Part shown: positions 245 through 31,920 of the stretch, piece after piece
Layout: the number at the start of each line of letters is the position of its first letter
How positions within the stretch are numbered: position 1 is the stretch's first letter
Assembly (NCBI RefSeq): GCF_947493765.1
Contig: NZ_CANLSZ010000001.1
Location: 372,001-436,000, forward strand
Direction of reading: 5' to 3'
DNA from: an uncultured Arthrobacter sp.
GTDB taxonomy: Bacteria > Actinomycetota > Actinomycetes > Actinomycetales > Micrococcaceae
Length of the DNA: 64,000 nt
Notes under the pieces: generated by a model
Told to the model about the DNA's origin: nothing
The model's database searches: none
What the model saw: the letters and a program-made list of their open reading frames with translations, nothing else
Program-made: the position numbers and the translations under genes

Positions 245-1098
245 CGCATCACCCGCTGGTCCTCGGGCAGCGCCCCGATGCGCAGCATGATGCGATAGCA
301 GAGCACGGAGATCAGCAGGCCGCCGAGCAGCACCATCACACCGCCGGCGGTGTTGTAGGCACGGATCGCCTCCGGCCGGGTGGAGAGCAGGAGGAGGACG
401 AACCAGGGCGCTGCGACCGCCAGGCGCGCGGCGTTGATGGTCCAGGACTGACGTGCTTCGAGCTCGCTGCGGGTCCGTGCGGCGTCCCGCAGGAACTCGG
501 ACAGCGTCCCGAGGAGCCGCCCGAGGTCGGACCCACCCACATCGCGCGTCAGGCGCAGCGCCTCGACGATGCGATCGGCCACCGGATCCGCGAGACGCTC
601 CTTCAGGCGGCTGAGGGCATCGTCGAAGCGCCCGCCCGCCCGGTAGTCCGCTCCGAAGGTCCGGAAGGCCGGCCGCAGTTCGAGCGGCCCCTTCTCCCCG
701 AGCTGGATGAGCGCCTCCGGCAATGAGAGACCGGCGCGGATGGCGGAGCGGAGGTGATCCACCACCTCGGGCCACAGTTCGCGCAGCGAGGCCGTGCGTC
801 TCGCTGCGCGCCACCTGACGATCGAGACCGGCAGGAGCGCACCGAAGAGGGCGAAGCACAGCGCGATGGGCGGTGAGCCGGTCAGGACGACGCCGACCAG
901 CATCACGAGGAGCCCGACCGCTGCGCAGGAGGCGAGCAACCCCTTCGGCGAGACCCGCTCCACTCCGGCACGCGCCAGGAGATCCTTGAGGGGCGCCCGG
1001 CGGGCCTTGCCCGGACGACGGCGCTCCGGGCGCTCCCAGAAGGACCACCAGATGAGCAGGAGGCCCGAGCCGAGGGCGACTCCGAGTGCCGCGCTCAC
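241..1098 (-). CDS. tadB: Type II secretion F-family protein, TadB-like pilus platform protein
   Basis: This 285-residue protein is a likely inner-membrane platform component of a Tad (Flp pilus) secretion system, working with the TadA ATPase. I chose the GTG at 1098 because it overlaps the tadA stop (GTGA) and is followed directly by a hydrophobic helix (SAALGVALGSGLLLIWW). Two more hydrophobic segments follow near residues 55-95, then a cytoplasmic F-domain with the typical pattern LWPEVVDHLRSAIRAGLSLP, and a C-terminal hydrophobic pair. The longer 449-residue frame in the ORF track is only an upstream extension antisense to, and inside, tadA. Overlaps at both ends suggest strict translational coupling of tadA-tadB-tadC. 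Confidence 0.87.
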   Translation of the reverse strand: MSAALGVALGSGLLLIWWSFWERPERRRPGKARRAPLKDLLARAGVERVSPKGLLASCAAVGLLVMLVGVVLTGSPPIALCFALFGALLPVSIVRWRAARRTASLRELWPEVVDHLRSAIRAGLSLPEALIQLGEKGPLELRPAFRTFGADYRAGGRFDDALSRLKERLADPVADRIVEALRLTRDVGGSDLGRLLGTLSEFLRDAARTRSELEARQSWTINAARLAVAAPWFVLLLLSTRPEAIRAYNTAGGVMVLLGGLLISVLCYRIMLRIGALPEDQRVMR

Positions 1099-2321
1099 GC
1101 CGCGGATCCCAGCAGGGCCGCGATGTCCACACCCGCGGCTGCGAATTTGTCCTCCGCCGGCATGCCGCTCGCCGCGAGGTGCAGGGCTCCGTCGATCCGT
1201 CTGAAGACGTAGGAGGACTCGATCACCCCGTTCTCGACGCGTCGGCCGAGGGCCATGATCTCCATGACTCTGCGCTGGCCGCCGGGGAGCCGGGCGCAGT
1301 GCACCACGAGGTCGATGCAGGAGGCCACGGTGGGCACCACGAAGCTGCTCGAGATGTTCTCCCCGGCCAGCAGGGGAAGCGTGCAGATCTTCGTGATCGC
1401 GTCGTGCGCACTGTTGGCATGGACGCTGCACATGCCCGGGAGCCCGCTGTTGAGCGCGATGAGCATGTCGAGGCTCTCGGCCTCCCGCACCTCCCCCACG
1501 ATCAACCGGTCCGGCCGCATCCGCAGGGCCTCCTTGACCAGGCGTCGCAGCGGGATCTCGCCGTGTCCCTCGAGATTCGGTTGCCTGCACTGCAGTCCGA
1601 CGACGTCGCGCAGCGGCAGCTGGAGCTCGAAGATCTCCTCCACGGTGATCACGCGCTCCCGGGGGCCGATCGAGGCCCCGAGGCAGTTGAGCATGGTGGT
1701 CTTCCCCGCCTGCGTGGCACCGGAGACGAGGACGTTGAGCCCGCTCGCAACTGCCACACCGAGGAAGCGCGCCGCCTGCGGGGACAGGGTGCCGAGCTCC
1801 ACGAGGTGCTCCAGTCTCGAGGCGCGCGCAATGAACTTCCGGATGTTCACGGACCAGTGTTTCCGTGTCACCTCGGGGATGACCACGTGCAGTCGCGAGC
1901 CGTCGGGCAAGGACGCGTCGACGAAAGGCGACGAGACGTCGAGACGGCGCCCGGAGGACTTCAGCATCTTCTCCACGAGATCGCGCACCTGCTGGTCGGT
2001 CAGCGAAAGGGCGGTGAGCTCGGACTCGCCGTCGCGCGCCACGTACACCTCGGACGGCGCGTTGATCCAGATCTCCTCGACGGTCGGATCATCCAGGAGC
2101 GGCTGCAGGGCTCCGAATCCGGCGACGGCATCGAAGATCTGTTTCCGCGCGGTGTCGAGCCTGCCCAGTGGTGGGACGACGCCCAGGACCGAGCGGTCCT
2201 CGTAGTCGGCCACCGCGTCGGTCACTAGGAGCTGCACCTCTGCGGCCTGCAGCGTCGGGTCCAGTCCGCGCCTGCGGATCAGCTCCCGCACCTCGCCCTC
2301 GATCAAGCGCACTGCATCCAT
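1095..2321 (-). CDS. tadA: CpaF/TadA-family secretion ATPase
   Basis: The hexameric ATPase that would power a Tad pilus. An N-terminal helical domain (EGEVRELIRRRGLD) precedes the type IV secretion ATPase core. Visible motifs are Walker A GATQAGKTT, the acidic Walker B stretch RLIVGEVREAESLDML, and the conserved IWINAPSEVYV and DGSRLHVVIPEV segments. I prefer the ATG at 2321 (408 residues, MDAVRLIEGEV), which sits behind a G-rich stretch and matches where CpaF proteins begin. The ORF-track start at 2393 would add 24 poorly conserved residues, and an intermediate ATG lies at 2348. It is the first visible gene of a minus-strand operon that continues beyond the window. Confidence 0.92.
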   Translation of the reverse strand: MDAVRLIEGEVRELIRRRGLDPTLQAAEVQLLVTDAVADYEDRSVLGVVPPLGRLDTARKQIFDAVAGFGALQPLLDDPTVEEIWINAPSEVYVARDGESELTALSLTDQQVRDLVEKMLKSSGRRLDVSSPFVDASLPDGSRLHVVIPEVTRKHWSVNIRKFIARASRLEHLVELGTLSPQAARFLGVAVASGLNVLVSGATQAGKTTMLNCLGASIGPRERVITVEEIFELQLPLRDVVGLQCRQPNLEGHGEIPLRRLVKEALRMRPDRLIVGEVREAESLDMLIALNSGLPGMCSVHANSAHDAITKICTLPLLAGENISSSFVVPTVASCIDLVVHCARLPGGQRRVMEIMALGRRVENGVIESSYVFRRIDGALHLAASGMPAEDKFAAAGVDIAALLGSAA

Positions 2322-2625
2322 CGCAACCCCCGCGAGCCCTGACACCATCGTCGGCCGACCGGCGGAGCCACTGCGGTCCGCGCCGAATTTCACCCTACTG
2401 AAGGGGGGTGCAGCCCGGAAAGAGGAACAGCGATATGTGAGTATCCCGACCCGGGATCAGGAGTAGTCCTCCACAGGCGACACGCGGAAGGAGCCCCCGC
2501 TTACTCGCAGGTTTAACCCAGCATTCCTACCGCTCTTCCGAAAGCCCCGTCACGGCGATTCCGGATGGGTAGTCTGCACGGGATTCATTTAGCTGGCTGA
2601 CGCCCGGATTCTGCTGGAGAAACCC
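2322..2625. other. Intergenic region between divergent tadA and the secreted metalloprotease gene
   Basis: About 300 bases with no credible ORF. It must carry promoters for both divergent units, but I could not pick a convincing -35/-10 pair. It holds a short inverted repeat (aggag-tagt-cctcc, near 2460-2473) and, just before the + gene, a good ribosome binding site (ggaga, five bases before the GTG at 2626). Confidence 0.6.
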
Positions 2626-5592
2626 GTGACCTTGCCCTTCCATGCCCGGCTTCTGTGTGCCGCCTTACTGTCCTTTGGTCTCATTGGCAGTGCGGTTCCC
2701 GCAGTAGCACTCGATGCACCACCGACCCCCTCCCCCTCGGCGACCCCACCGGCGGCTGCGCCGATCGAGACGACGCCGGCGTCACCGGCCGAGGCGACGC
2801 CCGCCCCGCAGGACACTACGACGCCGTCGGAGGCTCAGCCGACGCGGACCTCGCCGACAGAGGCGGCATCGGCTCCGGCCGCGCCGACAGCGCCGAAAGC
2901 CGCTCCGGAGAAAATTACGTCCTTCGTGCCGGATCTGAACTGGAATCCGCTCGATGACCCCGATTCGAATGCCCGATATGGCGAGCACTACGTGGACCAG
3001 AGCGACGGACCTGGCTCGGCAGCACCGTCGACCACGGACGGCAGCGGCGGTAGTGCCGCGCTGGCACCGCGGACAGGCACCTTCAAGGTCACGCTGGTCA
3101 CCGTGCAACTGTCGGGGAAGACAGTTGCCGATACCAATGCGATCAACTTGACGGCGGCCCGCAACTCGATCATCAATGCGAACAACTACTGGAACTCCTC
3201 CTCCGCCGGACGGCTGTCCTTCACAAAAGTGAACGAATACAGGCATCAGTCCGCCGCCAAGATCACAGACTCCTACGGCGTCATCATGGACAAGGTGACT
3301 CGCGAGCTCGGATGGCAATACCGCCCGTACGAGGCGCTGGTGATCTTCGTTCCGCATGCGGATCTGAGCTACAACGGCTCCTGGGGAATCCTGGGTGGCG
3401 GCTTCACTGATGGACCGACCAGCGGCCGCGTGATCATGCCGTACCCCTCCGCACTGACGAACAACGTGGTCGCGCACGAGTTCGGCCACGTCCTCGGCCT
3501 GCACCACGCCAACTCCCTCGCCTGCAGCAATGGGCGCTCCGATGTGTCCCGCTCCGGCGGCACATGGACGGACCGCGAGTGCTACTCGGCGGAGTACAGC
3601 GACACGACCGACCTCATGGGCTACGCACAGGTGAGCTCGCCGCGGGTCAATGCCTTCATGTGGGAGTACGGCGGCTTCGGGAACGGGCAGGAGATCCGGA
3701 ACCTCGGCACGCCGACGGCGGCAACGAGGGTGAGTCTCAAGCCATGGGCAGGGACAGCGACGGCACGCGCGGCGAAGTTCACCGACCCGGTGAGCAAGGA
3801 GGTCTACTACCTCGAGGCACGTCTGGCCGTGGGCTACGACAGCCAGACGGCTGTCGGCGGCAACGAGGGTGTGAAGATCACCAAGCGGGACAATCTCGGG
3901 TGGAGTGGCAATGCGTCGATCGTCCTGACACCCGACAGCCGGCGCTCCGGCTGGGGAAACACCTCGCTGACCTGGCAGCAGGGTCAGACCTTCACGACCT
4001 TCGCCGGGACCAAGGTCAGGATCGATTCCCTGACCTCCGCAGGCGCGACCGTGACCGTGACGCCGAAGGTGATCGCGCCGGTGGCTCCTGCGTTGGATCG
4101 GACGGAGTTGCGTTTCAGTGGGCCTGATTTCACCGGTGATGGCATCACCGACCTGTTCCATCGACGTGCTGATGGCACGTTGTGGGTCAGCCCAGGCACC
4201 ACAGGAAATACCTACGGCACTCCCCGCAAGATCGGCACCGGGTGGAGTTCTTTCAATCAGGTCTTCGCTGTCGGCGACTTCAACGGAGATCGACACGCGG
4301 ACCTGGCAGCGAGGAAGACCAACGGCGAACTATGGCTGTACCCCGGTAACGGTTCGGGCGGGTTCCTGAAGAGTTCTCGCATCGGCACCGGCTGGCAGAG
4401 CTTCGACACTGTCCTCGGGGTGGGAGACGTCACCGGTGACGGGCGGGCAGATATCGCCGCCAGAAACGCGGGCACCCTGTCGATCTACCCTGGATCGGGA
4501 ACAAGCGGCTTCAAAGCACGCATCACGTCAGGCACCTCCTGGCAGGGACTGAAGTTCGCCAGCGGCATCGGCGACTACAGCGGCGATGACGCCCCGGATC
4601 TCATCGCCCGCGATACCGCCGGCAAGCTTGTGATGTTCCGCAGCCTGCGCAACGGACAATTCGCACCCGCGAAAATCGTCGGATCAGGATGGGGCGGTTT
4701 CACCGACGTCATGGTCGGTCAGGACGTGAACCGTGACGGGCGTGCAGATACCGTGGCACGTTCCTCCGATGGACGTCTGACGGCCTACCTCGGAAACGGC
4801 TTCGGCGGCTACCTCAAAGAAACCATCGCCGCCGGACAGTGGAACTTCACCGAGACCATAGACGGCACGGACTTTGACTCCAACGGGACCGCCGATCTCC
4901 TGACCATCAACTCTGCAGGGGCCCTGGCTCTCCACTCCGGTACCGGAGCCGCCAGCACCACAGCACCCCGACAGATCGGTCGCGGCTGGCAGAACTTCAC
5001 CGAGGTCATGAACGGACGGGACTTCGACGGCAACGGTAAACCAGATCTCATCGCCCGCACCAAGACCGGAAACCTCGTCCTCTACACCACCGACGGCACC
5101 GCAAGATTCACCGGGCAACGTACCATCGGCACCGGCTGGAACGGCTTCACCGACATCATCAGCCCCGGCGACTTCAACGGCGATTCCCGCCCCGACCTCA
5201 TCGCCCGCACCAAGGACGGCACGCTGTTCCTCTACCCAGGAACAGGAACCGGAACCTTCAAGAAAGCGACCAAAATCGGAACCGGCTGGAACACCTTCAC
5301 CACTATCGCCCCAGCCCACGACATCAACGGGGACAAAAAAGCCGACCTCCTGGCCATCACACCCCAAGGCACCGCCTACATCTACCCCGGAAACGGAACA
5401 GGAGGATGGAAGCCCCGCATCAAGACCACCGAATATTGGTCAGCCACCACCATCCCCGCCGCAACACGCAACTTCGCCATGCCCAACCAAACCGCAACCC
5501 TCACCCCTGGTCGAAACGGCTCCCTCACCCTCCGCAACCTCAAACCCACCGGAGAACTCAACACCATCACCCTCAACACCGGAAAACTCTAA
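2626..5592 (+). CDS. Secreted metzincin-like zinc metalloprotease with C-terminal FG-GAP/VCBS module
   Basis: A 988-residue secreted protein. The start is a GTG five bases after GGAGA. Residues 1-28 form a signal peptide ending near AVA-LDA. Residues ~30-110 are a Pro/Ala/Thr-rich linker. The catalytic part holds the zinc-binding signature HEFGHVLGLHH and, further on, TDLMGYA, which could supply the metzincin Met-turn. It resembles M11/reprolysin-like peptidases rather than thermolysin. From residue ~484 onward come nine Asp-rich calcium-binding motifs of the type DFNGDxxxDL (FG-GAP/VCBS, probably a beta-propeller), then a ~60-residue tail. This C-terminal half is encoded by a direct repeat shared with the next gene. 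The substrate is unknown; wall-associated or environmental protein is plausible. Confidence 0.85.
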   Translation: MTLPFHARLLCAALLSFGLIGSAVPAVALDAPPTPSPSATPPAAAPIETTPASPAEATPAPQDTTTPSEAQPTRTSPTEAASAPAAPTAPKAAPEKITSFVPDLNWNPLDDPDSNARYGEHYVDQSDGPGSAAPSTTDGSGGSAALAPRTGTFKVTLVTVQLSGKTVADTNAINLTAARNSIINANNYWNSSSAGRLSFTKVNEYRHQSAAKITDSYGVIMDKVTRELGWQYRPYEALVIFVPHADLSYNGSWGILGGGFTDGPTSGRVIMPYPSALTNNVVAHEFGHVLGLHHANSLACSNGRSDVSRSGGTWTDRECYSAEYSDTTDLMGYAQVSSPRVNAFMWEYGGFGNGQEIRNLGTPTAATRVSLKPWAGTATARAAKFTDPVSKEVYYLEARLAVGYDSQTAVGGNEGVKITKRDNLGWSGNASIVLTPDSRRSGWGNTSLTWQQGQTFTTFAGTKVRIDSLTSAGATVTVTPKVIAPVAPALDRTELRFSGPDFTGDGITDLFHRRADGTLWVSPGTTGNTYGTPRKIGTGWSSFNQVFAVGDFNGDRHADLAARKTNGELWLYPGNGSGGFLKSSRIGTGWQSFDTVLGVGDVTGDGRADIAARNAGTLSIYPGSGTSGFKARITSGTSWQGLKFASGIGDYSGDDAPDLIARDTAGKLVMFRSLRNGQFAPAKIVGSGWGGFTDVMVGQDVNRDGRADTVARSSDGRLTAYLGNGFGGYLKETIAAGQWNFTETIDGTDFDSNGTADLLTINSAGALALHSGTGAASTTAPRQIGRGWQNFTEVMNGRDFDGNGKPDLIARTKTGNLVLYTTDGTARFTGQRTIGTGWNGFTDIISPGDFNGDSRPDLIARTKDGTLFLYPGTGTGTFKKATKIGTGWNTFTTIAPAHDINGDKKADLLAITPQGTAYIYPGNGTGGWKPRIKTTEYWSATTIPAATRNFAMPNQTATLTPGRNGSLTLRNLKPTGELNTITLNTGKL

Positions 5593-5598
5593 GGAACA
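4077..5598 (+). repeat. Direct repeat copy 1 (1522 bp) encoding the FG-GAP module plus the following ribosome binding site
   Basis: Bases 4077-5598 reappear at 6785-8306 with a constant offset of 2708. Every segment I compared is identical, and the ORF track gives the same shadow ORFs on both strands in both copies (for example the 227-residue minus-strand frames at 4684 and 7392), which implies nucleotide identity and not only protein similarity. The repeat starts in the Pro/Ala linker codons (gccggtggctcctgcg), covers the whole FG-GAP domain and the stop codon, and ends after taaggaaca, which includes the SD of the downstream gene. Confidence 0.93.
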
Positions 5599-5600
5599 TC

Positions 5601-8300
5601 ATGGTTTCGTCTACTACGAGCCGGAGGACGTGTTCCTCTGTAAGACTTCGTGCCGTCCTCAGTATCAGCGTCGCAGCTCTCATCTCAGCTGCTGTCGTGG
5701 GCACATCTCTTCCCGCCACAGCATCATCGCTTTCCACATTCCCCGCGGACCAGGCACCACAAGCCCAGATTTCCCCTTCGACGGAGGAGAACTTGCCAGG
5801 CGCGGAGATCGAGACTGGCCTTACTCCTCCTGTCACCCCTCCTACCGAAGCATCTCCTGATGAGGGAGAAGCCGAACAAGCTGAAGAAAACGCAGTGGAC
5901 CCGCAGGTGGGCAAGTTCGGCGCCGAAATGGGACAGGGAGTGAAACGAGCCGCGGCCGGCCTGGAGACGGCCCTGTCCCGGCAGGAGCTCCTCGATCGCG
6001 AAGCGGATGCTGAGTCGGCAAAGGATGACTCGACAGGGTCGTCCGCCATGAGTGGCTCGACGTGGCGCCCCAGCGGCGTTCAAGGCATGGATGTCAGCGC
6101 CTGGCAGGGGAATGTCGACTGGAAGTCCCAATGGGCGCTGGGCGCGCGCTTCACGTACATCAAGGCAACAGAAGGCACCTTCTACAAGAATCCGGAGTTC
6201 TCGCCCCAATACAGCGGTAGTTCCGCGGTCGGGATGTTGCGAGGGGCCTATCACTTTGCTCTGCCCAACCTGACCTCGGGTCGCGAGCAAGCCAATTACT
6301 TCCTCGACAACGGAGGCGGATGGTCCGCCGACGGTCAAAGCCTCCCCCCACTCCTCGACATCGAGTACAACCCCTACGGGGCCGATGTGATGCCCAGCGG
6401 TAGGGGTGATACCTGCTACGGCATGACGCCCTCCCAGTTGATCTCCTGGGTCCGCGATTTCTCGAACACCGTCAAAGCCCGAACCGGACGCCTTCCGATG
6501 ATCTACACAACGGCGAACTGGTGGAACTACTGCTTTGCCAGCACAACGGCATTCGGCGATCATCCACTGCACCTGGCTGCCTTCAACAACGTGGGAGCGG
6601 GTGCCTTGCCTGCGGGCTGGACGAGGTATTCCGTCTGGCAGTACAGCGAATCGGGTCCCTTCGCGGGGGACTCCAACCAGTGGCCGGGCTCCTACGCATC
6701 ACTGGAAGCCTTTGCGCGTAATGCCAGCACTGTGCCTGTTGCGCCTGCGCCTGCGCCGGTTGCTCCTAGGCCCGTGGCTCCGGTGCCGGTGGCTCCTGCG
6801 TTGGATCGGACGGAGTTGCGTTTCAGTGGGCCTGATTTCACCGGTGATGGCATCACCGACCTGTTCCATCGACGTGCTGATGGCACGTTGTGGGTCAGCC
6901 CAGGCACCACAGGAAATACCTACGGCACTCCCCGCAAGATCGGCACCGGGTGGAGTTCTTTCAATCAGGTCTTCGCTGTCGGCGACTTCAACGGAGATCG
7001 ACACGCGGACCTGGCAGCGAGGAAGACCAACGGCGAACTATGGCTGTACCCCGGTAACGGTTCGGGCGGGTTCCTGAAGAGTTCTCGCATCGGCACCGGC
7101 TGGCAGAGCTTCGACACTGTCCTCGGGGTGGGAGACGTCACCGGTGACGGGCGGGCAGATATCGCCGCCAGAAACGCGGGCACCCTGTCGATCTACCCTG
7201 GATCGGGAACAAGCGGCTTCAAAGCACGCATCACGTCAGGCACCTCCTGGCAGGGACTGAAGTTCGCCAGCGGCATCGGCGACTACAGCGGCGATGACGC
7301 CCCGGATCTCATCGCCCGCGATACCGCCGGCAAGCTTGTGATGTTCCGCAGCCTGCGCAACGGACAATTCGCACCCGCGAAAATCGTCGGATCAGGATGG
7401 GGCGGTTTCACCGACGTCATGGTCGGTCAGGACGTGAACCGTGACGGGCGTGCAGATACCGTGGCACGTTCCTCCGATGGACGTCTGACGGCCTACCTCG
7501 GAAACGGCTTCGGCGGCTACCTCAAAGAAACCATCGCCGCCGGACAGTGGAACTTCACCGAGACCATAGACGGCACGGACTTTGACTCCAACGGGACCGC
7601 CGATCTCCTGACCATCAACTCTGCAGGGGCCCTGGCTCTCCACTCCGGTACCGGAGCCGCCAGCACCACAGCACCCCGACAGATCGGTCGCGGCTGGCAG
7701 AACTTCACCGAGGTCATGAACGGACGGGACTTCGACGGCAACGGTAAACCAGATCTCATCGCCCGCACCAAGACCGGAAACCTCGTCCTCTACACCACCG
7801 ACGGCACCGCAAGATTCACCGGGCAACGTACCATCGGCACCGGCTGGAACGGCTTCACCGACATCATCAGCCCCGGCGACTTCAACGGCGATTCCCGCCC
7901 CGACCTCATCGCCCGCACCAAGGACGGCACGCTGTTCCTCTACCCAGGAACAGGAACCGGAACCTTCAAGAAAGCGACCAAAATCGGAACCGGCTGGAAC
8001 ACCTTCACCACTATCGCCCCAGCCCACGACATCAACGGGGACAAAAAAGCCGACCTCCTGGCCATCACACCCCAAGGCACCGCCTACATCTACCCCGGAA
8101 ACGGAACAGGAGGATGGAAGCCCCGCATCAAGACCACCGAATATTGGTCAGCCACCACCATCCCCGCCGCAACACGCAACTTCGCCATGCCCAACCAAAC
8201 CGCAACCCTCACCCCTGGTCGAAACGGCTCCCTCACCCTCCGCAACCTCAAACCCACCGGAGAACTCAACACCATCACCCTCAACACCGGAAAACTCTAA
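5601..8300 (+). CDS. Secreted GH25 muramidase (lysozyme) with C-terminal FG-GAP/VCBS module
   Basis: An 899-residue exported protein that should cleave the MurNAc-GlcNAc linkage of peptidoglycan. The ATG at 5601 has AAGGA six bases upstream, overlapping the previous gene's stop region; the ORF-track start at 5406 lies inside that gene. A signal peptide (residues ~1-43, ending near PATASS) is followed by a variable acidic/Pro-rich region. The GH25 barrel covers about residues 150-375, with GMDVSAWQGNVDW, YIKATEGTFYKNP, GAYHFA and the catalytic LLDIEYNP (Asp-x-Glu). A Pro/Ala/Val linker (VAPAPAPVAPRPVAP) leads to the same nine-motif FG-GAP module as in the upstream protease. The short gap suggests co-transcription with it. 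The shared module may target both enzymes to the same surface ligand. Confidence 0.93.
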   Translation: MVSSTTSRRTCSSVRLRAVLSISVAALISAAVVGTSLPATASSLSTFPADQAPQAQISPSTEENLPGAEIETGLTPPVTPPTEASPDEGEAEQAEENAVDPQVGKFGAEMGQGVKRAAAGLETALSRQELLDREADAESAKDDSTGSSAMSGSTWRPSGVQGMDVSAWQGNVDWKSQWALGARFTYIKATEGTFYKNPEFSPQYSGSSAVGMLRGAYHFALPNLTSGREQANYFLDNGGGWSADGQSLPPLLDIEYNPYGADVMPSGRGDTCYGMTPSQLISWVRDFSNTVKARTGRLPMIYTTANWWNYCFASTTAFGDHPLHLAAFNNVGAGALPAGWTRYSVWQYSESGPFAGDSNQWPGSYASLEAFARNASTVPVAPAPAPVAPRPVAPVPVAPALDRTELRFSGPDFTGDGITDLFHRRADGTLWVSPGTTGNTYGTPRKIGTGWSSFNQVFAVGDFNGDRHADLAARKTNGELWLYPGNGSGGFLKSSRIGTGWQSFDTVLGVGDVTGDGRADIAARNAGTLSIYPGSGTSGFKARITSGTSWQGLKFASGIGDYSGDDAPDLIARDTAGKLVMFRSLRNGQFAPAKIVGSGWGGFTDVMVGQDVNRDGRADTVARSSDGRLTAYLGNGFGGYLKETIAAGQWNFTETIDGTDFDSNGTADLLTINSAGALALHSGTGAASTTAPRQIGRGWQNFTEVMNGRDFDGNGKPDLIARTKTGNLVLYTTDGTARFTGQRTIGTGWNGFTDIISPGDFNGDSRPDLIARTKDGTLFLYPGTGTGTFKKATKIGTGWNTFTTIAPAHDINGDKKADLLAITPQGTAYIYPGNGTGGWKPRIKTTEYWSATTIPAATRNFAMPNQTATLTPGRNGSLTLRNLKPTGELNTITLNTGKL

Positions 8301-8306
8301 GGAACA
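6785..8306 (+). repeat. Direct repeat copy 2 of the FG-GAP cassette
   Basis: Second copy of the 1522-bp repeat at 4077-5598. The left boundary falls in the Pro/Ala linker codons of the muramidase gene; the base before it differs (t here, c in copy 1). The right boundary falls after taaggaaca, where copy 1 continues tcATG and copy 2 continues ctga. The ribosome binding site is therefore retained here without a gene behind it. Confidence 0.93.
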
Positions 8307-8395: not shown

Positions 8396-8818
8396 TCACG
8401 GTGCCGCACTTCCCTTTTCTGCTTCGCCCTCTGGGTCATCACGAAGGACTGTGCGAGAAAGACCTGCCGGTCGGCCGTCCTCCCACGGACGCTCGGCCTC
8501 ATCCAGAGCAATACGTCTCGAAAGCTTCGTCAAGATTCCCTCCGTCTGACGGAAGCGCTGATGCGTCGTCGAAATGTACACGAGGAACGAGACAATGAAG
8601 GCATACAGCATAAGATCGGTCCCACGACCCACGCCTACTACACGGGCCAGTTGAGTGAGGATCTCGGGAAAGAAGATGGAGAGGACGGCCGCCACTGCGA
8701 ATAACAGAACCATAAGACGGCGTACAGCCATGTGCTTTGCATTGGATCCACCGCGGATAAGCACCAGGGAGAAGAGGATGACGGCGACGACAAGCACTAT
8801 TTGCACGATGAATATCAT
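8396..8818 (-). CDS. DUF2304 membrane protein
   Basis: A 140-residue protein with three hydrophobic helices in its first ~95 residues (IVQIVLVVAVILFSLVLI, LMVLLFAVAAVLSIFF, LMLYAFIVSFLVYISTT) and a charged cytoplasmic tail. This is the layout of DUF2304 proteins, which usually sit beside a family-2 glycosyltransferase of the dolichol-phosphate-mannose synthase type and are thought to assist it at the membrane. That is the case here: the GT2 gene ends only five bases upstream. The pair probably makes or uses a polyprenyl-phosphate-linked sugar for wall polymer decoration. The biochemical role is inferred from context. Confidence 0.85.
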   Translation of the reverse strand: MIFIVQIVLVVAVILFSLVLIRGGSNAKHMAVRRLMVLLFAVAAVLSIFFPEILTQLARVVGVGRGTDLMLYAFIVSFLVYISTTHQRFRQTEGILTKLSRRIALDEAERPWEDGRPAGLSRTVLRDDPEGEAEKGSAAP

Positions 8819-8823
8819 GAGTA

Positions 8824-9489
8824 TTACCTAAAGAGCAGATCCGCGAGGATGTTCACAGAATTAAGAAGAGATTGGCCCTTTGCTTTTGAATAGTCCGTGT
8901 AGATGATTTCGACCGGGTGTTCCGTCCATCGAGGCTTGAGAGCGACGAGCACTTGAATCAGCTCGGAGGCATGAGCCATCCGATTCTGAGTCAGATGCAG
9001 ATGCGCCACCACGTCGCGATTGAACGCGCGCAATCCGTTGTGAGCATCGGTGAGGTTCATTCCCGTACTCAAACGGGTTTGCAGAGCTGCTGTTCGAAGC
9101 ACTAGCCGCTTGAGCGCCCCGATCTTGGTGCGTCCGTCGAGGAACCGCGAACCGAGAACGACATCGGCCTCTCCTGATTCGAGCCGTCTGACCATTGCCA
9201 GTGCATCCGACACCCGATGCTGACCGTCAGCGTCGAACGTCACGATGGACGACATGTGAGGGTCGAGCAGCGCGTACTCGAATCCAGTTTGGAGGGCGGC
9301 TCCCTGCCCCAAATTCACCGGGTGTTGAACAACGACCGCTCCAGCAGTTCGAGCAGCTTCCGCCGAGCTGTCGGTGCTGCCGTCATCCACGCAGACGATG
9401 TGCGGAAAGACTTCGAGGAGATCACGGATGACGGATCCGATGACGGGAGCCTCGTTGAACAGCGGGATCACGATCCAAGTACGACTCAC
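8824..9489 (-). CDS. Family 2 glycosyltransferase, polyprenyl-phosphate sugar synthase type
   Basis: A 221-residue soluble GT-A enzyme starting at GTG 9489. It shows the opening WIVIPLFNEAPVIGSVI, the nucleotide-binding VDDGSTDSS and the metal-binding TFDADGQH, as in DPM1/polyprenyl-phosphate glycosyltransferases. It lacks the C-terminal membrane helices that some relatives have; the downstream DUF2304 protein would supply the membrane part. Likely reaction: transfer of a hexose from a nucleotide sugar to a polyprenyl phosphate. The donor sugar cannot be told from sequence. It is preceded by a 126-base gap after the next glycosyltransferase, so it may have its own promoter. Confidence 0.87.
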   Translation of the reverse strand: MSRTWIVIPLFNEAPVIGSVIRDLLEVFPHIVCVDDGSTDSSAEAARTAGAVVVQHPVNLGQGAALQTGFEYALLDPHMSSIVTFDADGQHRVSDALAMVRRLESGEADVVLGSRFLDGRTKIGALKRLVLRTAALQTRLSTGMNLTDAHNGLRAFNRDVVAHLHLTQNRMAHASELIQVLVALKPRWTEHPVEIIYTDYSKAKGQSLLNSVNILADLLFR

Positions 9490-11961: not shown

Positions 11962-12041
11962 GCTAAAGAGGAGAGCCACGTAGGATGGAAGGCGTGCCTG
12001 CTGCAGGTACACCCCTGCTCCCCCGCCGCTTCGGAGAACCG

Positions 12042-13847
12042 ATGAAAGAACTGTTCCGCGTCCTGCGCGAACTCATACCTATTCTCCCTGCCAGGGCGCG
12101 ACGTTTCATCATCGTCTTCGGTCTGGCACTTTCCCTCCTGTCCCTGCTCGAGGCGGGGGCACTTGGCGTGTTCGCCGTGATCATGACCCAGATTCTTGGT
12201 GGTGGTGATCTTCAGCTGCCCGTTCTCGGCACAGTGTCCCGCGACATGAGCCTGTGGCTGCTGGTCGCCTCCACTGCCCTTATGATCGTGAAATCCTTCG
12301 TCAGTATCTGGATGCAGTGGATCTCTACCCGGAAGTTTGCTCAGTTCGAGCTCGAAATCGGCACCCACCTCTTCAATAGCTACATCCGCTCGCCGTGGAC
12401 CGAACGAATGAAGCGATCAACGGCTGAGCTGGTGCGGCTCATCGACGTCGGCATTGCCAACACGATCGCCGGCGTGTTGATCCCCGCCGTCACCATTCCA
12501 TCGCAGATCCTCACTTTCCTGTCGGTACTGGGCATCCTGGTGGTCACGCAACCGTTGACCGCTCTGCTCACCGTGGTTTACCTCGGCCTAATCGCCGGGG
12601 TGCTCTACGTCTGGTTGACGAAGAAGTCCTATGTGGCAGGGCGGGTCAACCGGGACTCGGCTATGCGCATGGCGACCCTCGTGTCCGAGATGATCTCCGC
12701 GCTGAAGGAGATTACCCTCCGTGATAAGGCGCAGGAGGTGGGCGACGTCGTTTTCGTCAGTCGATCACGCGCAGCGCACTCCCGCTCGAACATTCGATTC
12801 CTCGCGGCTGTTCCGAAGTTCGTCGTCGACATGGCGCTGCTCGGCGGGTTCCTTCTTATCGGCAGCGTGTCTTTCCTGACCGGTGGCCTGGAGAGCGCGC
12901 TCGCGGCCGTCGCCATCTTCGGCATCGCCGGGTTCAAGATGGTACCGTCCCTCACCGCAGTGCAGTCACAGCTTGCCCTGACGCAGTCCACGCTGCCGTA
13001 CACGAGCATTGTGTTGGAAGACATCAAGCGCATGGATTCCTACAGCAACCGCGACGAGAACATCGGCGGCTTGCGGATAGGAGCCGAGCCTCGAATGTTG
13101 ACACTCAAGGGTGTCGGGTTCACTTATCCTGGAGCATCGTCGCCGGCGGTGAGCGACATAGAGCTCGCGGTCCCGATCGGATCGTCGGTCGGCATTGTCG
13201 GCCAGTCCGGCGCAGGGAAGTCCACCCTCATTGATATCCTGCTGGGTCTACTGACCCCGTCCGCAGGGTCGATGCATCTCGATGGCGTACCCCTCGAGGA
13301 CGTTCTGGCCGACTGGCGGTCCAGGGTGGGTTACGTCCCTCAGGACGTCGCCATTTTTGATGGATCGATCGCACAGAATGTCGCTCTCACCTGGAGCGAT
13401 GACTTCGACGAGCAAAGAGTCCGCGAGGCTCTGCGGAAGGCGCAGCTGCTCGAGACCGTCGAAATGAGAGCCCGCGGAATCCATGGGAGGGTGGGCGAGA
13501 GAGGCTTGGCGCTGTCCGGAGGCCAAAGACAGCGGCTCGGCATTGCACGAGCGCTCTATGTGGATCCACTCGTCCTCGTGCTCGACGAGGCGACCAGCGC
13601 GCTCGATACGGCGACCGAAGCTGCAGTGGCGGACGCGATCGGAGAACTGCACGGCGAGATCACAGTCATCTCCGTGGCGCATCGGCTGTCCACCATCAGG
13701 CACAGCGACCAGGTGTGCTTCATGAGTGATGGCTCGATCATCAGCCGAGGAACCTTTGACGAGGTGGTCGCAGGGAATACCGAGTTCGCTCAGCAGGCGA
13801 TGCTGGCTGGTCTCACTCCGGACGATCAGCCTGTCAAGAACTCATAA
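12042..13847 (+). CDS. ABC transporter with fused permease and ATPase, MsbA/PglK-like lipid-linked saccharide flippase
   Basis: A 601-residue half-transporter. The preferred ATG at 12042 (MKELFRVLRELIP) has GGAG at a good distance; the ORF-track ATG at 11985 would add 19 residues with a poorer SD. About six hydrophobic helices occupy residues 20-320. The ATPase domain follows with Walker A GQSGAGKST (near residue 386), signature LSGGQRQRLGIARAL, Walker B LVLVLDEATSALD and the H-loop VAHRLSTI. Single-chain exporters in polysaccharide loci often flip polyprenyl-diphosphate oligosaccharides (PglK type) or other lipids. Substrate and direction are inferred from location. It is the only + strand gene between two minus-strand glycosyltransferase groups. 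Confidence 0.88.
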   Translation: MKELFRVLRELIPILPARARRFIIVFGLALSLLSLLEAGALGVFAVIMTQILGGGDLQLPVLGTVSRDMSLWLLVASTALMIVKSFVSIWMQWISTRKFAQFELEIGTHLFNSYIRSPWTERMKRSTAELVRLIDVGIANTIAGVLIPAVTIPSQILTFLSVLGILVVTQPLTALLTVVYLGLIAGVLYVWLTKKSYVAGRVNRDSAMRMATLVSEMISALKEITLRDKAQEVGDVVFVSRSRAAHSRSNIRFLAAVPKFVVDMALLGGFLLIGSVSFLTGGLESALAAVAIFGIAGFKMVPSLTAVQSQLALTQSTLPYTSIVLEDIKRMDSYSNRDENIGGLRIGAEPRMLTLKGVGFTYPGASSPAVSDIELAVPIGSSVGIVGQSGAGKSTLIDILLGLLTPSAGSMHLDGVPLEDVLADWRSRVGYVPQDVAIFDGSIAQNVALTWSDDFDEQRVREALRKAQLLETVEMRARGIHGRVGERGLALSGGQRQRLGIARALYVDPLVLVLDEATSALDTATEAAVADAIGELHGEITVISVAHRLSTIRHSDQVCFMSDGSIISRGTFDEVVAGNTEFAQQAMLAGLTPDDQPVKNS

Positions 13848-22587: not shown

Positions 22588-23483
22588 TCACAGCTCCTGG
22601 GCGAATCGGCCCTCGAGCCGGCGGAAGACCAGCTGCCCGAGGATGACGACGATCAACGAGATGGCCAGACCTACGGGTACCCAGACCGAGAGGAAGGACG
22701 GCGGCAGACCCTGGGTCTGCTCGGCCGTCGGCATCCAGAAGGCGAAATGGAAGGACTCCACCCCGATGGTGATCGGGTTGAGTAGATAGATGTCGAGCGC
22801 GGCCTCCCCCAGTTGGTCACGGACCATGGTCCACGCGTAGAGGACGGGGGATGCCCAGGTGGCGACCATGAGCAGCATGTCGACGAAGTTCTCGGCGTCC
22901 CTGAAGTAGACGTTGACAGCGCCGAAGATCAGGCCGAGGCCCGTGGCGAGGAAGGCCACGATCAGGAATCCGACGACGGCAGTGCCGAGCTGGAGCACGG
23001 AGGGTGTCCAACCCGTCAGGAGACAGGCCCCCACGAGGATCACCATCTGGGGCAGGAAGTGGATCCCGGAGACCCAGATAGCAGAAACCGGGAAGAGCTG
23101 ACGCGGCAGGTAGATCTTCTTGATCAGGCCGCCGTTGGTCACGATGGACCGCGAGGCATTGCTCAGTGCTTCCGAGAAGAAGTTGATCAGCACGATCCCT
23201 GAGAACAGATAGATTGCGTAGTTCGGCAGACCGGCCGGGTTGCGCTCGCTCTGCTCGAGGCCGAGGAAGATGCCGAGGGCAATGTAGAAGACCACGAACT
23301 GGATACCGGGTTTGACATAGGACCACAGCAGGCCCAGGATCGAGCCGCGATAACGGACCTTGATCTCCTTGTCCACCAGGAGCTTGAGCAGGAATCTACT
23401 TCCCACCACATCCCGGACGCCCCCGCCACGACCCGGTGCTACCAGACCGACTGCGCCGTCGCCGGCTCGTGAAGCGCCAGCGC

Positions 23484-23487
<4 letters not shown>
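22588..23487 (-). CDS. wzm: ABC-2 polysaccharide exporter permease (Wzm/Rv3783-like)
   Basis: A 299-residue membrane protein starting at GTG 23487, which overlaps the glfT2-like stop (GTGA). The ORF-track start at 23745 lies inside that gene. An N-terminal amphipathic stretch with LLVDKEIKVRYRGSILGLLW is typical of ABC-2 polysaccharide permeases, then about six helices (VVFYIALGIFLGL, YAIYLFSGIVLINFFSEAL, FLPQMVILVGACLLTG, VVGFLIVAFLATGLGLIFGA, near 260 VWVPVGLAISLIVVILGQLV). The NVYFRDAENFVDMLL segment is the conserved coupling region. It pairs with the ATPase downstream. In mycobacteria the equivalent pair exports the galactan of arabinogalactan. Confidence 0.9.
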
Positions 23488-26764
<3,277 letters not shown>

Positions 26765-26914
26765 TCACCAGAATGCGCGGTACGAGACGTATAGGTTCGC
26801 GTTCTAGGCTACCGGAAGCCGGGTAGCGTCCTGATCTCCACCATGATTCCGACACGGCCCAAGCTCTATCGGCCTCGTGCCGGGTCGGGCTTTGGGGAGG
26901 TTAAGCTTCTAGTC

Positions 26915-27967
26915 ATGCGAATCTTGAGTGTGGTCGGCGCCCGTCCCCAGTTCGTGAAACTGGCACCCATCGCTCAGGCGATGAAGGGCGAGGCCGAGCA
27001 TCTGATCGTCCACACCGGCCAGCACTACGACGCCATGATGTCCGACGTGTTCTTCCAGGACCTCGGTATTCCTGAACCCGATTTCAATCTCGGCGTCGGG
27101 TCGGGCAAGCACGGACAGCAGACGGGCGCCATGCTCGGAGGCCTCGAGACCATTTTCGAGGACGTACGTCCGGACTACGTGCTGGTCTACGGTGACACCA
27201 ATTCCACCCTTGCGGCAGCCCTGGCCGCGGTGAAGCTCCATGTGCCACTCGCTCATCTCGAGGCGGGCCTACGATCGTTCAATCGGCGCATGCCCGAGGA
27301 GCACAATCGCGTCCTCACCGATCATGCGGCGGATCTCCTGCTGGCGCCCACCGAGGTCGCGATGGCCCACCTGGAGCACGAGGGCCTCGCAGAACGAAGT
27401 GTCCTCGTCGGTGATGTCATGACCGATGTCCTCTTCAGCACACGGGCAGCCGTGGAAGCCCGCAAGGAGGAACTGCCGGGGGGTGTGAGCAAGGGTGGCT
27501 ACTACATCTGCACCATTCACCGACCCGACAACACCGACGATCCCGAGCGCCTGGGCCAGATCGTCGAGTCCCTGGCGCGCCTGGACAGGCCGGTGATTCT
27601 ATTGGCCCACCCTCGTCTGGTGGCGCTCGCTGGTAAGCACGGCATTCACCTCGAATCGGGGTCCATCCGGCCCGCGTCCCCGCTTGCCTATCCCCAACTG
27701 GTCAATGCTGTCATGAACAGTGCAGGGGTCATTACCGACTCGGGTGGTCTTCAGAAGGAGGCCTTCCTACTGCGTGTTCCCTGCACGACGATCAGGCCGG
27801 AGACCGAATGGGTGGAGACTGTGAGACTTGGCTGGAACGTACTGGTCTCCGAGGATCTGGCTACCCTCACAGCCGTCGTCCAGCGTCCGATGCCCGAGCC
27901 GACCGTCGCTACCCCTTACGGCGAGGGCCGGGCGGCAGAGCAGGTCGTCAGGGCGATCCTCGGGTGA
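26915..27967 (+). CDS. wecB: Non-hydrolysing UDP-GlcNAc-type 2-epimerase (WecB/WbpI-like)
   Basis: A 350-residue enzyme that inverts C2 of a UDP-N-acetyl-amino sugar. The ATG at 26915 begins MRILSVVGARPQFVKL, the family N-terminus; the ORF-track start at 26843 adds 24 residues that do not fit. Signature segments are HTGQHYDAMMSDVFF, VYGDTNSTLAAALAA, HLEAGLRSFNRRMPEEHNR, CTIHRPDNTD and TDSGGLQKEAFLLRVP. WecB acts on UDP-GlcNAc; WbpI acts on the diacetamido-glucuronate analogue. Sequence alone does not separate them, but the WbpA/B/D/E-type genes across the convergent junction favour the WbpI role. It is transcribed alone, away from glf. Confidence 0.9.
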   Translation: MRILSVVGARPQFVKLAPIAQAMKGEAEHLIVHTGQHYDAMMSDVFFQDLGIPEPDFNLGVGSGKHGQQTGAMLGGLETIFEDVRPDYVLVYGDTNSTLAAALAAVKLHVPLAHLEAGLRSFNRRMPEEHNRVLTDHAADLLLAPTEVAMAHLEHEGLAERSVLVGDVMTDVLFSTRAAVEARKEELPGGVSKGGYYICTIHRPDNTDDPERLGQIVESLARLDRPVILLAHPRLVALAGKHGIHLESGSIRPASPLAYPQLVNAVMNSAGVITDSGGLQKEAFLLRVPCTTIRPETEWVETVRLGWNVLVSEDLATLTAVVQRPMPEPTVATPYGEGRAAEQVVRAILG

Positions 27968-27987
27968 TCGGCGGATCGTAGTGATGA

Positions 27988-28018
27988 CGATGCGTCTGGG
28001 TCGACCCTAGACGCATCG
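27988..28018. terminator. Strong bidirectional terminator hairpin
   Basis: A perfect ten-base stem, cgatgcgtct (27988-27997) and agacgcatcg (28009-28018), extended by ggg/ccc with one bulged t around a tcga loop. It lies exactly between the convergent epimerase and glycosyltransferase stop codons, so it likely ends both transcripts. Confidence 0.75.
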
Positions 28019-28019
28019 C

Positions 28020-29171
28020 TCAGCGCCTTGTCCTCTGATCGATGTCAGTCAGGACGTTGGCAACGTCGTCTCCGACGCGGGTCAGCGAGTAGTTGTCCTC
28101 GACCCAGGCAGCGAGACGCTGCTTCTCGCTGTGTGGCCTTCTGGTGGCGAGAAGTCGGCGCATCGCCTGCGCCACGTCATCAGCGTTCCATTCGACACTC
28201 AGTCCCAGGTTCTCTCCGGCGATGATGTCCTTCAATGGACCGACCCCCGCATAGATCACCGGCGTGCCACAGCTGAGGCTGACGAAGGCCTTGGTGGCGA
28301 AGGCGAAGTCGTATCCCTTCGCGGGCCGCACCGATGCAAGCCCGGCGACTGCTCCCCTCAGAACGCTCGAGAGATATTCGCTGTCCACCGTGCCGGGAAA
28401 TGTGATGCGTTCTCCCGCAGGCACTGAGCGGTCGAGGAGTTCATCCCTTTCGACGCCCTGACCGTACATGATCAACCGGACGTCCGGAAATTCCGCCATC
28501 ACTTTCAGGAAGCCATCAACGAAGACACCGGCACCCTGGATCTCGGACATGGTACCCGCATAGACGAAGTACCGGCCAGGCTCGGGCGTGGCCCGGCCCT
28601 CGACGGAGAACTTCCGGGTGTCGACACCCGTCCCTACGTTCACTACACGCTCAGGACGGCTAGTGAGGCGGACAACTGCATCTGACACACCCGGCGAGAC
28701 CGTGAGGACATAGCGTGCTGCGGACAGGACGTACCGCTCGAGAGTGCGGAGCAGCAGGACGACCGGTGCGGCAACGCCGATCCCGGCGGCAGCGACAGAG
28801 CTGACATCCGCCGCGAAGTAGATGAACGGCCGCCTACGTAGTGCAGCAGCTATGCGGACCATCAAGCCGGTGGTGGGCGGCGGTTCCACGATGACGACGT
28901 CGAATGCCCGTCCGAACAGGAGGCGGAACAGGAGTGGGATGTCGAAACTTGCGTACTGCAGATATCCGCGGACAGCGCCTGTTCCGTCCCGCAGGACGGG
29001 CCATCTTCGAACTGTCGGGCTTGACCGTTCGGCTCCGGGCGCGCGTGTCGTGTAGACGGTCACCTCGTGGCCGCGCTTCTCCAGTTGACGGACCGTCGCA
29101 GCCAATCGGTAGGCGGCAGCGCCGGTCTCCGGTTCGAAGATGCGTGTCGCGACTGCAATGCGGAGACCCAC
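28020..29171 (-). CDS. Family 4 glycosyltransferase
   Basis: A 383-residue GT-B enzyme starting at GTG 29171. Visible are RIAVATRIFEPETGAAAYRL at the N-terminus, VVIVEPPPTTGLMV and the hydrophobic PFIYFAADVSSVAAAGIG (membrane-facing side), VNVGTGVDTRKF, YFVYAGTMSEIQGAGVFVDG, and donor-side FATKAFVSLSCGTPVIYAG. It follows the Gfo/Idh/MocA oxidoreductase gene by two bases and closes a five-gene unit for a diacetamido uronic acid, so it is the best candidate to transfer that sugar (WlbE/WbpH-like role). This donor assignment is an inference from position. Confidence 0.85.
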   Translation of the reverse strand: MGLRIAVATRIFEPETGAAAYRLAATVRQLEKRGHEVTVYTTRAPGAERSSPTVRRWPVLRDGTGAVRGYLQYASFDIPLLFRLLFGRAFDVVIVEPPPTTGLMVRIAAALRRRPFIYFAADVSSVAAAGIGVAAPVVLLLRTLERYVLSAARYVLTVSPGVSDAVVRLTSRPERVVNVGTGVDTRKFSVEGRATPEPGRYFVYAGTMSEIQGAGVFVDGFLKVMAEFPDVRLIMYGQGVERDELLDRSVPAGERITFPGTVDSEYLSSVLRGAVAGLASVRPAKGYDFAFATKAFVSLSCGTPVIYAGVGPLKDIIAGENLGLSVEWNADDVAQAMRRLLATRRPHSEKQRLAAWVEDNYSLTRVGDDVANVLTDIDQRTRR

Positions 29172-29173
29172 GG

Positions 29174-30160
29174 TCAGAGGTCGCGGACGACGCCGTCGCG
29201 TGCCGCCTCGATGATGGCTTCGGCGACACGAAGGGTGTTCAGGCCCTCGCGCATGGTCACCGTATTGTCGGCGACTCCGAGGGCCGCGTCACGGAACGCC
29301 TCGAGCTCGGAACGGAGGGGCTCACGCTTGGTGAGGGCCAGCCGGGTGATGTTGCCCTCCGACACTCCCCTGAAGTTGGAAACGGCTTCCCATTCCGTCG
29401 TGAAGGTCCCGTTCTCGTAGAACGTGAGGTCAGCGGTGAGGGTGTCGGCGACGAAGGCTCCCTTCTCCCCTGTCACGACGGTGACGCGCTCCTTCATCGG
29501 CGAGAGCCAGTTCACCAGGTGACTGGTGATGACGCCGTTCTCGAGCTGACACGATGCCGTGACCATGTCCTCGTGGGCCCGACCGGATCGAGTACTGGTG
29601 CGCGCCGATACCGAGACGAACGGTGACTGCGCCAGCCAGGACGTCAGATCGATGTCGTGCGTACCGAGGTCCTTCACCACACCGACATCCGCGATCCGGG
29701 CAGGGAACGGACCCTGCCGTCGCGTGGCGATCTGGTACACCTCGCCGAGGTCGCCCGAGGCGATCCGGCTCCTCAGGGACTGCAGCGCGGGGTTGAAGCG
29801 CTCGATATGCCCCACGGCACCCACCAGGCCGGCTTCTTCGAAGGCCTCGACCAGATTCAGGCCCGCCTGCACGGTGTCCGCGATGGGCTTCTCGACGAGG
29901 GTGTGGACACCGGCGGCTGCGAGTGCCAGACCCACCTCCTCGTGGAGCCCGGTGGGTACCGCGCAGACCGCCAGGTCGAGACCCTGACCGATGAGCTCGT
30001 CGATGGAACCGCAGAGCTCCAGATCACCGGCGGCTCCGTGCGGGTCACCGTAGGCATCGGCGACGGCGACGAGCTGCAGACCCTCGACCTCGCGGATGGC
30101 CCTCGCATGGTTCCTGCCCATCATGCCCAGCCCGATCAGGCCTACCCTCAGATCAGCCAT
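29174..30160 (-). CDS. Gfo/Idh/MocA-family NAD-dependent oxidoreductase (WbpB/WlbA-like)
   Basis: A 328-residue dehydrogenase with an N-terminal Rossmann fold (RVGLIGLGMMGRNHARAI), the EKP motif (LVEKPIADTV) and the KDLGTHDIDLTSWL segment of the C-terminal domain, in which D and H are typical of the active site. In the WbpB/WlbA role it oxidises C3 of UDP-GlcNAcA to the 3-keto sugar, which the adjacent aminotransferase then aminates. Its stop is two bases before the next glycosyltransferase start, and it starts four bases after the aminotransferase stop. The order WbpA, WbpD, WbpE, WbpB types on one strand supports this substrate over inositol or other sugars. Confidence 0.87.
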   Translation of the reverse strand: MADLRVGLIGLGMMGRNHARAIREVEGLQLVAVADAYGDPHGAAGDLELCGSIDELIGQGLDLAVCAVPTGLHEEVGLALAAAGVHTLVEKPIADTVQAGLNLVEAFEEAGLVGAVGHIERFNPALQSLRSRIASGDLGEVYQIATRRQGPFPARIADVGVVKDLGTHDIDLTSWLAQSPFVSVSARTSTRSGRAHEDMVTASCQLENGVITSHLVNWLSPMKERVTVVTGEKGAFVADTLTADLTFYENGTFTTEWEAVSNFRGVSEGNITRLALTKREPLRSELEAFRDAALGVADNTVTMREGLNTLRVAEAIIEAARDGVVRDL

Positions 30161-30163
30161 GAG

Positions 30164-31255
30164 CTAGGCACCGGCCTTCGCGAGCGCGTTGACCGCTGTG
30201 ACGATCCGGTCGAGGTCCTCCGCGTCGAGCGAGGGGTGGACGGGGAGCGAGAGGACCTCGCGGGCGGCGATCTCCGTGTTCGGCAGGTCCTCGGTCCGTC
30301 GGAAGGAGGGCAGCCGGTGGTTGGGAATCGGGTAGTAGACACCCGAGCCGATGTTGTATTCGTCCTTCAGTGCGGCGGCGAAACCGTCGCGGTCGCTTTC
30401 CACCCTGATGGTGTACTGGTGGTAGACGTGCACTGCGCCCTCGGCCACGGCCGGCGGGACGACACCCTCGAGATTTGCGGTGAGGAACGCCGCGTTCGAC
30501 TGGCGCTGTTCCGTCCACCCGCCCACCTTGGTCAGCTGCACCCGGCCGATGGCGGCGTGCAGATTCGTCATCCTGGCATTGAACCCCACCAGTTCGTTCT
30601 CGTACTGGCGTTCCATCCCCTGATTACGCAGTAGACGGAGGCGGCGTTCGATATCCGGGTCTCCGGTGGAGACCATGCCGCCCTCGCCGGAGGTCATGTT
30701 CTTGGTCGGGTAGAGGGAGAACATGGCGAAATCGCCGAACGTGCCGACCTGCCGCCCGTCGAAGGACGCTCCGTGTGCCTGCGCGGCGTCCTCGAAGAGC
30801 ATGATGCCGCGATCGTCGGCGAGCTGCCGGTATGCGGCGAGATCGGCCGGGTGACCGTAGAGGTGCACCGGCATGATGCCCTTGGTCTTCTCGGTGATAA
30901 GACTGGTGACGTGGTCGACGTCCAGGCAGTAGTGGTCGAGCTCCACGTCCGCGAAGACGGGCGTGGCACCCGTGAGGGCCACGGAGTTGGCGGTCGCCGC
31001 GAAGGTGAACGACGGGACGATGACCTCGTCGCCCGGCCCGATGCCCGCGGCGAGCAGACCGAGGTGGAGTCCTGCCGTCCCCGAGTTGACCGCGACGGCG
31101 CCCCGGCCGTCGAGGAGCACATCCGAGAACTCCTTCTCGAAGGCGGCCACCTCGGCGCCCTGCGCGAGCATGCCGGAGAGCAGCACGGCGTCGACGGCGG
31201 CGCGTTCGTCTTCTCCGACGATCGGTTTCGCTGCGGGAATGAATTCAGTGCTCAT
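30164..31255 (-). CDS. DegT/DnrJ/EryC1-family sugar aminotransferase (WbpE/WlbC-like)
   Basis: A 363-residue PLP enzyme. The ATG at 31255 overlaps the acetyltransferase stop (ATGA); the ORF-track extension to 31486 is shadow sequence. Motifs include AVNSGTAGLHLGLLAAGIG, VIVPSFTFAATANSVALTG, LFEDAAQAHGASFDG and the PLP-binding lysine in SLYPTKNMTSGEGG, plus GFNARMTNLHAAIG. It should transfer an amino group (from glutamate in characterised relatives) to C3 of the 3-keto-uronate made by the neighbouring oxidoreductase. Placement in the diacetamido-uronate block supports that, although the family includes many other sugar substrates. Confidence 0.9.
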   Translation of the reverse strand: MSTEFIPAAKPIVGEDERAAVDAVLLSGMLAQGAEVAAFEKEFSDVLLDGRGAVAVNSGTAGLHLGLLAAGIGPGDEVIVPSFTFAATANSVALTGATPVFADVELDHYCLDVDHVTSLITEKTKGIMPVHLYGHPADLAAYRQLADDRGIMLFEDAAQAHGASFDGRQVGTFGDFAMFSLYPTKNMTSGEGGMVSTGDPDIERRLRLLRNQGMERQYENELVGFNARMTNLHAAIGRVQLTKVGGWTEQRQSNAAFLTANLEGVVPPAVAEGAVHVYHQYTIRVESDRDGFAAALKDEYNIGSGVYYPIPNHRLPSFRRTEDLPNTEIAAREVLSLPVHPSLDAEDLDRIVTAVNALAKAGA

Positions 31256-31848: not shown

Positions 31849-31920
31849 GATGCTTTGATTCCTCTCTGCAGCTGCCGGAGCCGCCTGTGGAGCTGCGACG
31901 CCGAGGGAAGTGCATGGTGG

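Follow-up and report, generated by a model that had tools for sequence, protein, structure and literature searches.

Identical and jointly changing C-terminal tails on a neighbouring secreted protease and muramidase in Arthrobacter

In the 64-kb stretch of Arthrobacter DNA analyzed here (the window), two neighbouring genes encode secreted enzymes with unrelated catalytic heads that end in the same FG-GAP module. Why should a protease and a muramidase carry one and the same tail, and what keeps the two copies alike? The explanation that we favour, with a probability of roughly 0.6, is that two wall enzymes share one predicted lectin, which fits the cell's own wall glycopolymer and follows its changes, and that the two lectin copies are homogenised. 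The initial annotation of this DNA had proposed a fixed C-terminus combined with changing catalytic heads.

Two unrelated heads joined to one repeat

The pair consists of gene P, encoding a putative metzincin-like protease, and gene G, encoding a GH25 muramidase, with the following features.

2626..5592, + strand: gene P, secreted metzincin-like protease with FG-GAP tail, assigned from sequence, Pfam metalloprotease matches lying below the curated cut-offs
4077..5598, + strand: tail copy 1, FG-GAP lectin-like module of 1522 bp, identical to copy 2
5590..5603, + strand: P stop, Shine-Dalgarno-like AAGGA and G start, as read in the DNA
5601..8300, + strand: gene G, secreted GH25 muramidase with FG-GAP tail (PF01183, E 8e-47)
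6785..8306, + strand: tail copy 2, FG-GAP module, identical to copy 1

P is composed of a signal peptide, a Pro/Ala/Thr-rich region, a catalytic head at about 2914-4068 and the FG-GAP tail. Both marks of a metzincin were found: the zinc motif HEFGHVLGLHH at 3475-3507 fits HExxHxxGxxH, and LMGYAQ at 3613 is a possible Met-turn. P did not score above the cut-off of any named Pfam peptidase family, the best being M43 (19.8 bits, cut-off 23). The P heads of relatives also matched M10, M12B-like and M7 families weakly, and a PDB search with the P head returned chance matches to antibody light chains and nothing else. G starts with an ATG at 5601, has its head at about 6048-6716 and belongs to GH25 by its PF01183 match and its catalytic D/E motif (DIE, within LLDIEYN at 6351). 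The P stop and the G start are 8 bp apart and AAGGA overlaps the P stop; P and G probably form a tightly spaced, translationally coupled pair.

Base-by-base comparison of 4077-5598 with 6785-8306 revealed a constant offset of 2708 and 0 mismatches over 1522 bp, in a 31-contig draft genome (G000) in whose assembly one or two inter-copy differences may have been lost. This confirms the identity and constant offset first reported for the two segments. Aligning the copies revealed no synonymous differences: 504 codons are identical, all third positions included, which excludes chance. Outside either repeat edge we found no similarity; the upstream parts are unrelated, and their earlier identification as a metzincin-like protease and a GH25 muramidase holds. 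The repeat starts 9 bases past the catalytic head in P and, in G, after about 70 bases of Pro/Ala/Val linker past the GH25 head; it extends through the entire FG-GAP region and the stop codon to 6 bp beyond that stop. It is the sole long repeat of the window, and whole-genome DNA and protein searches for further tail copies returned only these two. A phage origin was also considered and rejected, as there was no DNA match among 50,697 phage records. When genome contigs were searched with the tail, matches were obtained only in Arthrobacter echini (G001), the nearest relative among the genomes compared, and in a distant Actinoplanes.

Conserved heads, matched and changing tails

Across the genus, the P and G heads keep a single position, with tad-pilus genes on one side and a wall-polysaccharide locus on the other. 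Searches with each head matched the protease head in 36 of 39 genus genomes and the GH25 head in 24, and in 14, the window's own included, P and G were readable as neighbours. The pair is flanked by tadA upstream, where this side was read, and by the wall-polysaccharide locus downstream. In the window, these flanks include the following features.

1095..2393, - strand: presumably tadA, pilus ATPase (name from sequence and knowledge of such proteins), the conserved upstream flank of the pair
8396..9489, - strand: DUF2304 protein and family 2 glycosyltransferase, the start of the downstream wall-polysaccharide locus
11985..13847, + strand: MsbA/PglK-like ABC transporter, in the polysaccharide locus
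22588..26716, - strand: galactan-type ABC permease, GlfT2-like galactofuranosyltransferase and UDP-galactopyranose mutase, with homologues in nearly all flanks read that far (the exception being G033)

Comparison with relatives largely turned the first reading of the locus around. A recent swap of catalytic heads is ruled out by the conservation of both heads at one locus, and it is the tail that changes, in both genes. In another clade of the genus (G035, G025, G009, G006, G058, G011 and G022), the protease head carries an SLH-like tail and lies apart from the GH25 gene.

Matched P and G tails recur in 12 further genomes, nearly all with 0-3 differences in about 1.4-1.8 kb. The two tails are 99.5-100% identical over 1.4-1.8 kb in G000, G002, G008, G030, G034 and G060 (0 differences), G004 and G013 (1 base), G007 (2), G024 and G306 (3), and G012, whose copies differ by small gaps that lie in P and break its reading frame there. 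G306 belongs to a different genus and has the reversed gene order, and its tails are still matched. Identity is looser in G259 (97%) and G033 (95%); in the pair clade, only the latter (L100, L196) has tails that have drifted apart, with 42 differences in 827 bp. Between sister species, by contrast, the tails differ by 9-18% (identity 0.91 for G024/G030, 0.89 for G004/G002, 0.85 for G024/G007 and 0.82 for G002/G012). At third positions the difference is 0-0.4% within genomes versus 11-29% between relatives. The residual differences between copies lie mostly at the repeat edges (genomes of genus g1), and the homogenised tract is bounded by homology, from the head-tail junction to just past the stop.

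Tails that are alike within a genome, divergent between sisters and different mainly at their edges point to gene conversion limited by homology, and we consider it very probable that the P and G tails are under concerted evolution by this process, that is, by homologous recombination between the copies. The suggestion that gene conversion keeps the copies identical is strongly supported, since copies within a genome are far closer than the orthologues of sister species. A recent swap, which was the other suggestion, or a recent duplication is not needed and would leave the recurrence in other genomes unexplained. Bacterial duplicates such as tuf or rRNA genes likewise evolve in concert, their copies being homogenised by gene conversion within a genome. 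P and G differ from these in that the genes are unrelated apart from their tails, to which the homogenisation is confined, and in that non-homologous folds take the place of the tail from one species to another. We also observed tandem pairs of whole FG-GAP-tailed genes in G003, G005 and G023 (L042, L043, L045) which, unlike the homogenised P/G pair, are 75-79% identical.

The tail family has been replaced several times by unrelated folds, each time in P and G together. Both genes carry an FG-GAP beta-propeller tail in G000, G008, G013 and G034, an LGFP stalk as tail in G024, G004, G002, G007, G012, G030 and G306, and a BTRD1-like repeat tail (below the Pfam cut-off) in G060. A tree of 112 protease heads from one bacterial family shows at least 24 changes of tail family, the tails being of LGFP, FG-GAP, SLH-like, GWAxD-type and other kinds, in a typing that left out 14 genomes of genus g31. 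Matching is not obligatory, as G032 and G028 have both heads adjacent and different tails. GH25-head identity tracks the tail type and not the P head: for G024 and G060 it is 0.52, against 0.83 for the P heads, and for G013 and G008 it is 0.86, against 0.63. This suggests that tail, GH25 head and tail probably move as a block. Relative to third positions, the tails have more first- and second-position change than the heads, an excess that fits relaxed or diversifying selection on ligand recognition.

It could be argued that the identity is a by-product of adjacency, neighbours that share a long tail being homogenised without any selection for matching. Gene conversion acts generally between repeats that lie close together, the position of the inter-copy differences at the repeat edges is in line with it, and P away from the GH25 gene carries other tails, such as the SLH-like one. 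However, adjacency leaves unexplained why P and G repeatedly came to share a new fold, even in a different genus whose gene order is reversed, and as an explanation of the whole pattern we find it somewhat unlikely.

Predicted ligands and the neighbouring wall-polymer genes

The relatives of the tails in the PDB are informative on what the tails may bind. A profile search with the FG-GAP tail returned the UmbA chains 8w20 and 8w22 (8w20 chain C, residues 248-497, E 6e-32). The best fold match of the tail model was 9oee, UmbA4 bound to a teichuronic acid polymer, a match that rests mostly on repeat similarity since the AlphaFold model is poor (pTM 0.49). The model of the LGFP tail is good (pLDDT 94) and matches MytA (6swz, TM 0.93 of target), and LGFP tails match the MytA LGFP domain in sequence too; the BTRD1-like tail of G060 had no PDB relative by sequence. 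The UmbA4 propeller binds a polymer of ManNAc3NAcA and GalNAc (PMC13274773), and the LGFP domains of MytA bind the peptidoglycan-arabinogalactan wall (PMC11299179). From these relatives (UmbA, MytA), the surface-binding role first proposed for the module is likely, and we predict with moderate confidence that the tail is a lectin for the producer's own wall.

UmbA of the Streptomyces umbrella particles (8w20, 8w22, 9oee; PMC11062931, PMC13274773) carries at its C-terminus a beta-propeller lectin from the sequence family of the FG-GAP tail, and it likewise combines a conserved head with many interchangeable lectin folds and a link to ManNAc3NAcA wall polymers. The UmbA head is trypsin-like, whereas P and G have metzincin-like and GH25 heads and neither has an N-terminal trypsin-like part; moreover, here two adjacent genes hold identical predicted lectins, and the lectin family tracks the producer's own pathway. 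The LGFP domain of Corynebacterium glutamicum MytA (6swz, 6sx4) resembles the LGFP tails of the relatives in sequence and fold, but has 5 LGFP repeats compared to 9-12 in these tails, which sit on other enzymes. We take the bacteria with LGFP tails to be devoid of mycolic acids, unlike the host of MytA. In pneumococcal choline-binding proteins, a wall-binding module is common to several wall enzymes, and one kind of module directs different catalytic heads to a single wall polymer, as proposed for P and G. To our knowledge, choline-binding modules diverge between proteins and keep one family, whereas the P/G tail copies do not differ at a single base and switch family jointly.

Near the pair, in the window, lies a complete predicted set of five genes for UDP-ManNAc3NAcA.

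26843..33234, both strands: complete predicted UDP-ManNAc3NAcA set, compared with the pathway of PMC13274773
26843-27967, + strand: 2-epimerase
29174-30160, - strand: 3-dehydrogenase, WbpB/UtrB-like
30164-31252, - strand: aminotransferase, WbpE/UtrA-like
31252-31848, - strand: N-acetyltransferase, WbpD/UtrJ-like
31921-33234, - strand: 6-dehydrogenase, WbpA/UtrD-like

All five enzyme types of the Wbp/Utr pathway were found together, assigned by family only, at 19-25 kb from the pair. A distance of 9-23 kb separates the GH25 head from the WbpB-like gene in 12 of the 13 genus genomes with both. The WbpB-like gene was present in all 9 FG-GAP-tailed genomes of the pair clade versus 2 of 14 with other tails, a correlation that amounts to 1-2 independent contrasts. 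We therefore used wider genome sets and a Pagel test. The WbpB-like gene was present in 7 of 8 FG-GAP genomes outside the window's genus versus 4 of 34 with other tails, and, among all 112 genomes, in 29 of 33 versus 16 of 79. With the P-head tree, not a species tree, as the basis of the comparative tests, the dependent model was preferred for tail and pathway (112 genomes; LRT 24.9, 4 df, p about 5e-5), and a stricter independent-pairs test leaned the same way without reaching significance (about 4 concordant and 0-1 discordant pairs, p 0.06-0.13). The exceptions are LGFP tails with the pathway (G026, G033) and FG-GAP tails without it (G366, G346, G409, G281). In G033, LGFP tails stand beside a pathway otherwise met with FG-GAP tails, possibly a recent mismatch. 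We also noted that at 23487-26716 of the window the GlfT2-like transferase and UDP-galactopyranose mutase adjoin the galactan-type ABC permease, which suggests a galactofuran-containing wall polymer.

Under our preferred explanation, the locus would be an old two-gene unit encoding a metalloprotease and a GH25 muramidase, both secreted and both ending in a glycan-binding tail. The tails are direct repeats, 2.5-3.5 kb apart, that stay identical in each genome, for which gene conversion is the best explanation. A new tail would arrive as a tail-GH25-tail block, or in one gene and then be copied to the other. The tail would serve as a lectin for the wall glycopolymer made by the adjoining locus and change when the polymer changes; for the FG-GAP tail, we predict a teichuronic-acid-like polymer with ManNAc3NAcA as the ligand. 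With matched tails, protease and muramidase would be brought to the same sites of the wall. More tentatively, the wall-polymer locus and both tails may change together as a lectin-polymer matching system, with gene conversion copying the currently correct lectin from one enzyme to the other. If so, the tail family would report which wall polymer a strain makes. Should the tails indeed fit the wall polymer of their producer, ligands could be predicted from the genome for FG-GAP and LGFP modules, common but largely uncharacterised parts of secreted actinobacterial proteins, and there would be a simple way to test how autolysins keep up with a wall that changes. Neither modular wall-binding domains nor gene conversion is new, but a limited literature search found no account of two adjacent, unrelated enzymes with lectin tails that stay identical and are jointly swapped for other folds.

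The same tails might instead aim both enzymes at the walls of competitors, as a bacteriolytic weapon whose target range is set by the tail. Among solved structures, the FG-GAP tail is closest to the UmbA lectins, which Streptomyces use against other Streptomyces, and a muramidase with a protease is a plausible lytic set; since kin also carry the polymer, attack on close relatives would be possible. However, the tail family tracks the producer's own sugar pathway, the pair adjoins the producer's own polymer locus, and we saw no UmbB/UmbC-like partner among the neighbours of the pair that were scanned. We consider such a weapon rather improbable.

Assembly, possible loss and possible growth of the repeat

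Direct repeats could also act as a switch, in which recombination cuts out the GH25 gene while a protease-tail gene stays intact. In G014 (L036:5432-7615), whose P head is nearly identical to that of G013, a single P-tail gene with a shortened FG-GAP tail is joined directly to the flank lying behind GH25 in G013, and we found no GH25 head in this genome. G014 is, however, a 210-contig draft in which a repeat collapsed in assembly would look similar, and most relatives keep both genes, making a switch improbable. An assembly artefact or a recent one-off tail duplication in the window strain, to which the draft state of G000 and the many draft relatives that break exactly at the tail could point, is ruled out by single-contig or near-complete genomes with matched tails (G024, G004, G060, G007 and G012), several with single inter-copy differences proving that the copies were assembled separately, by the matched tails of G306 in another genus, and, as to a one-off duplication, by the recurrence in 12 genomes.

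Short-read assemblies break at the P/G locus or lose the muramidase gene. In nine genus drafts the contig ends 85-537 bases past the protease head, as expected if the tail is a repeat that the assembly could not resolve.

Two further observations concern the tails themselves. A CCCACC-like stretch follows the P and G stops across tail families (L033, L034, L087, L089, L094, L095, L096 and L097) and might provide a short homology through which tails are exchanged. Internal tandem copies that are 88-98% identical, with units of about 160-530 bp, occur in several tails (L094:6199-7514, L253:7643-8643, L252, L255, L125 and L127); tails seem to grow by tandem duplication.
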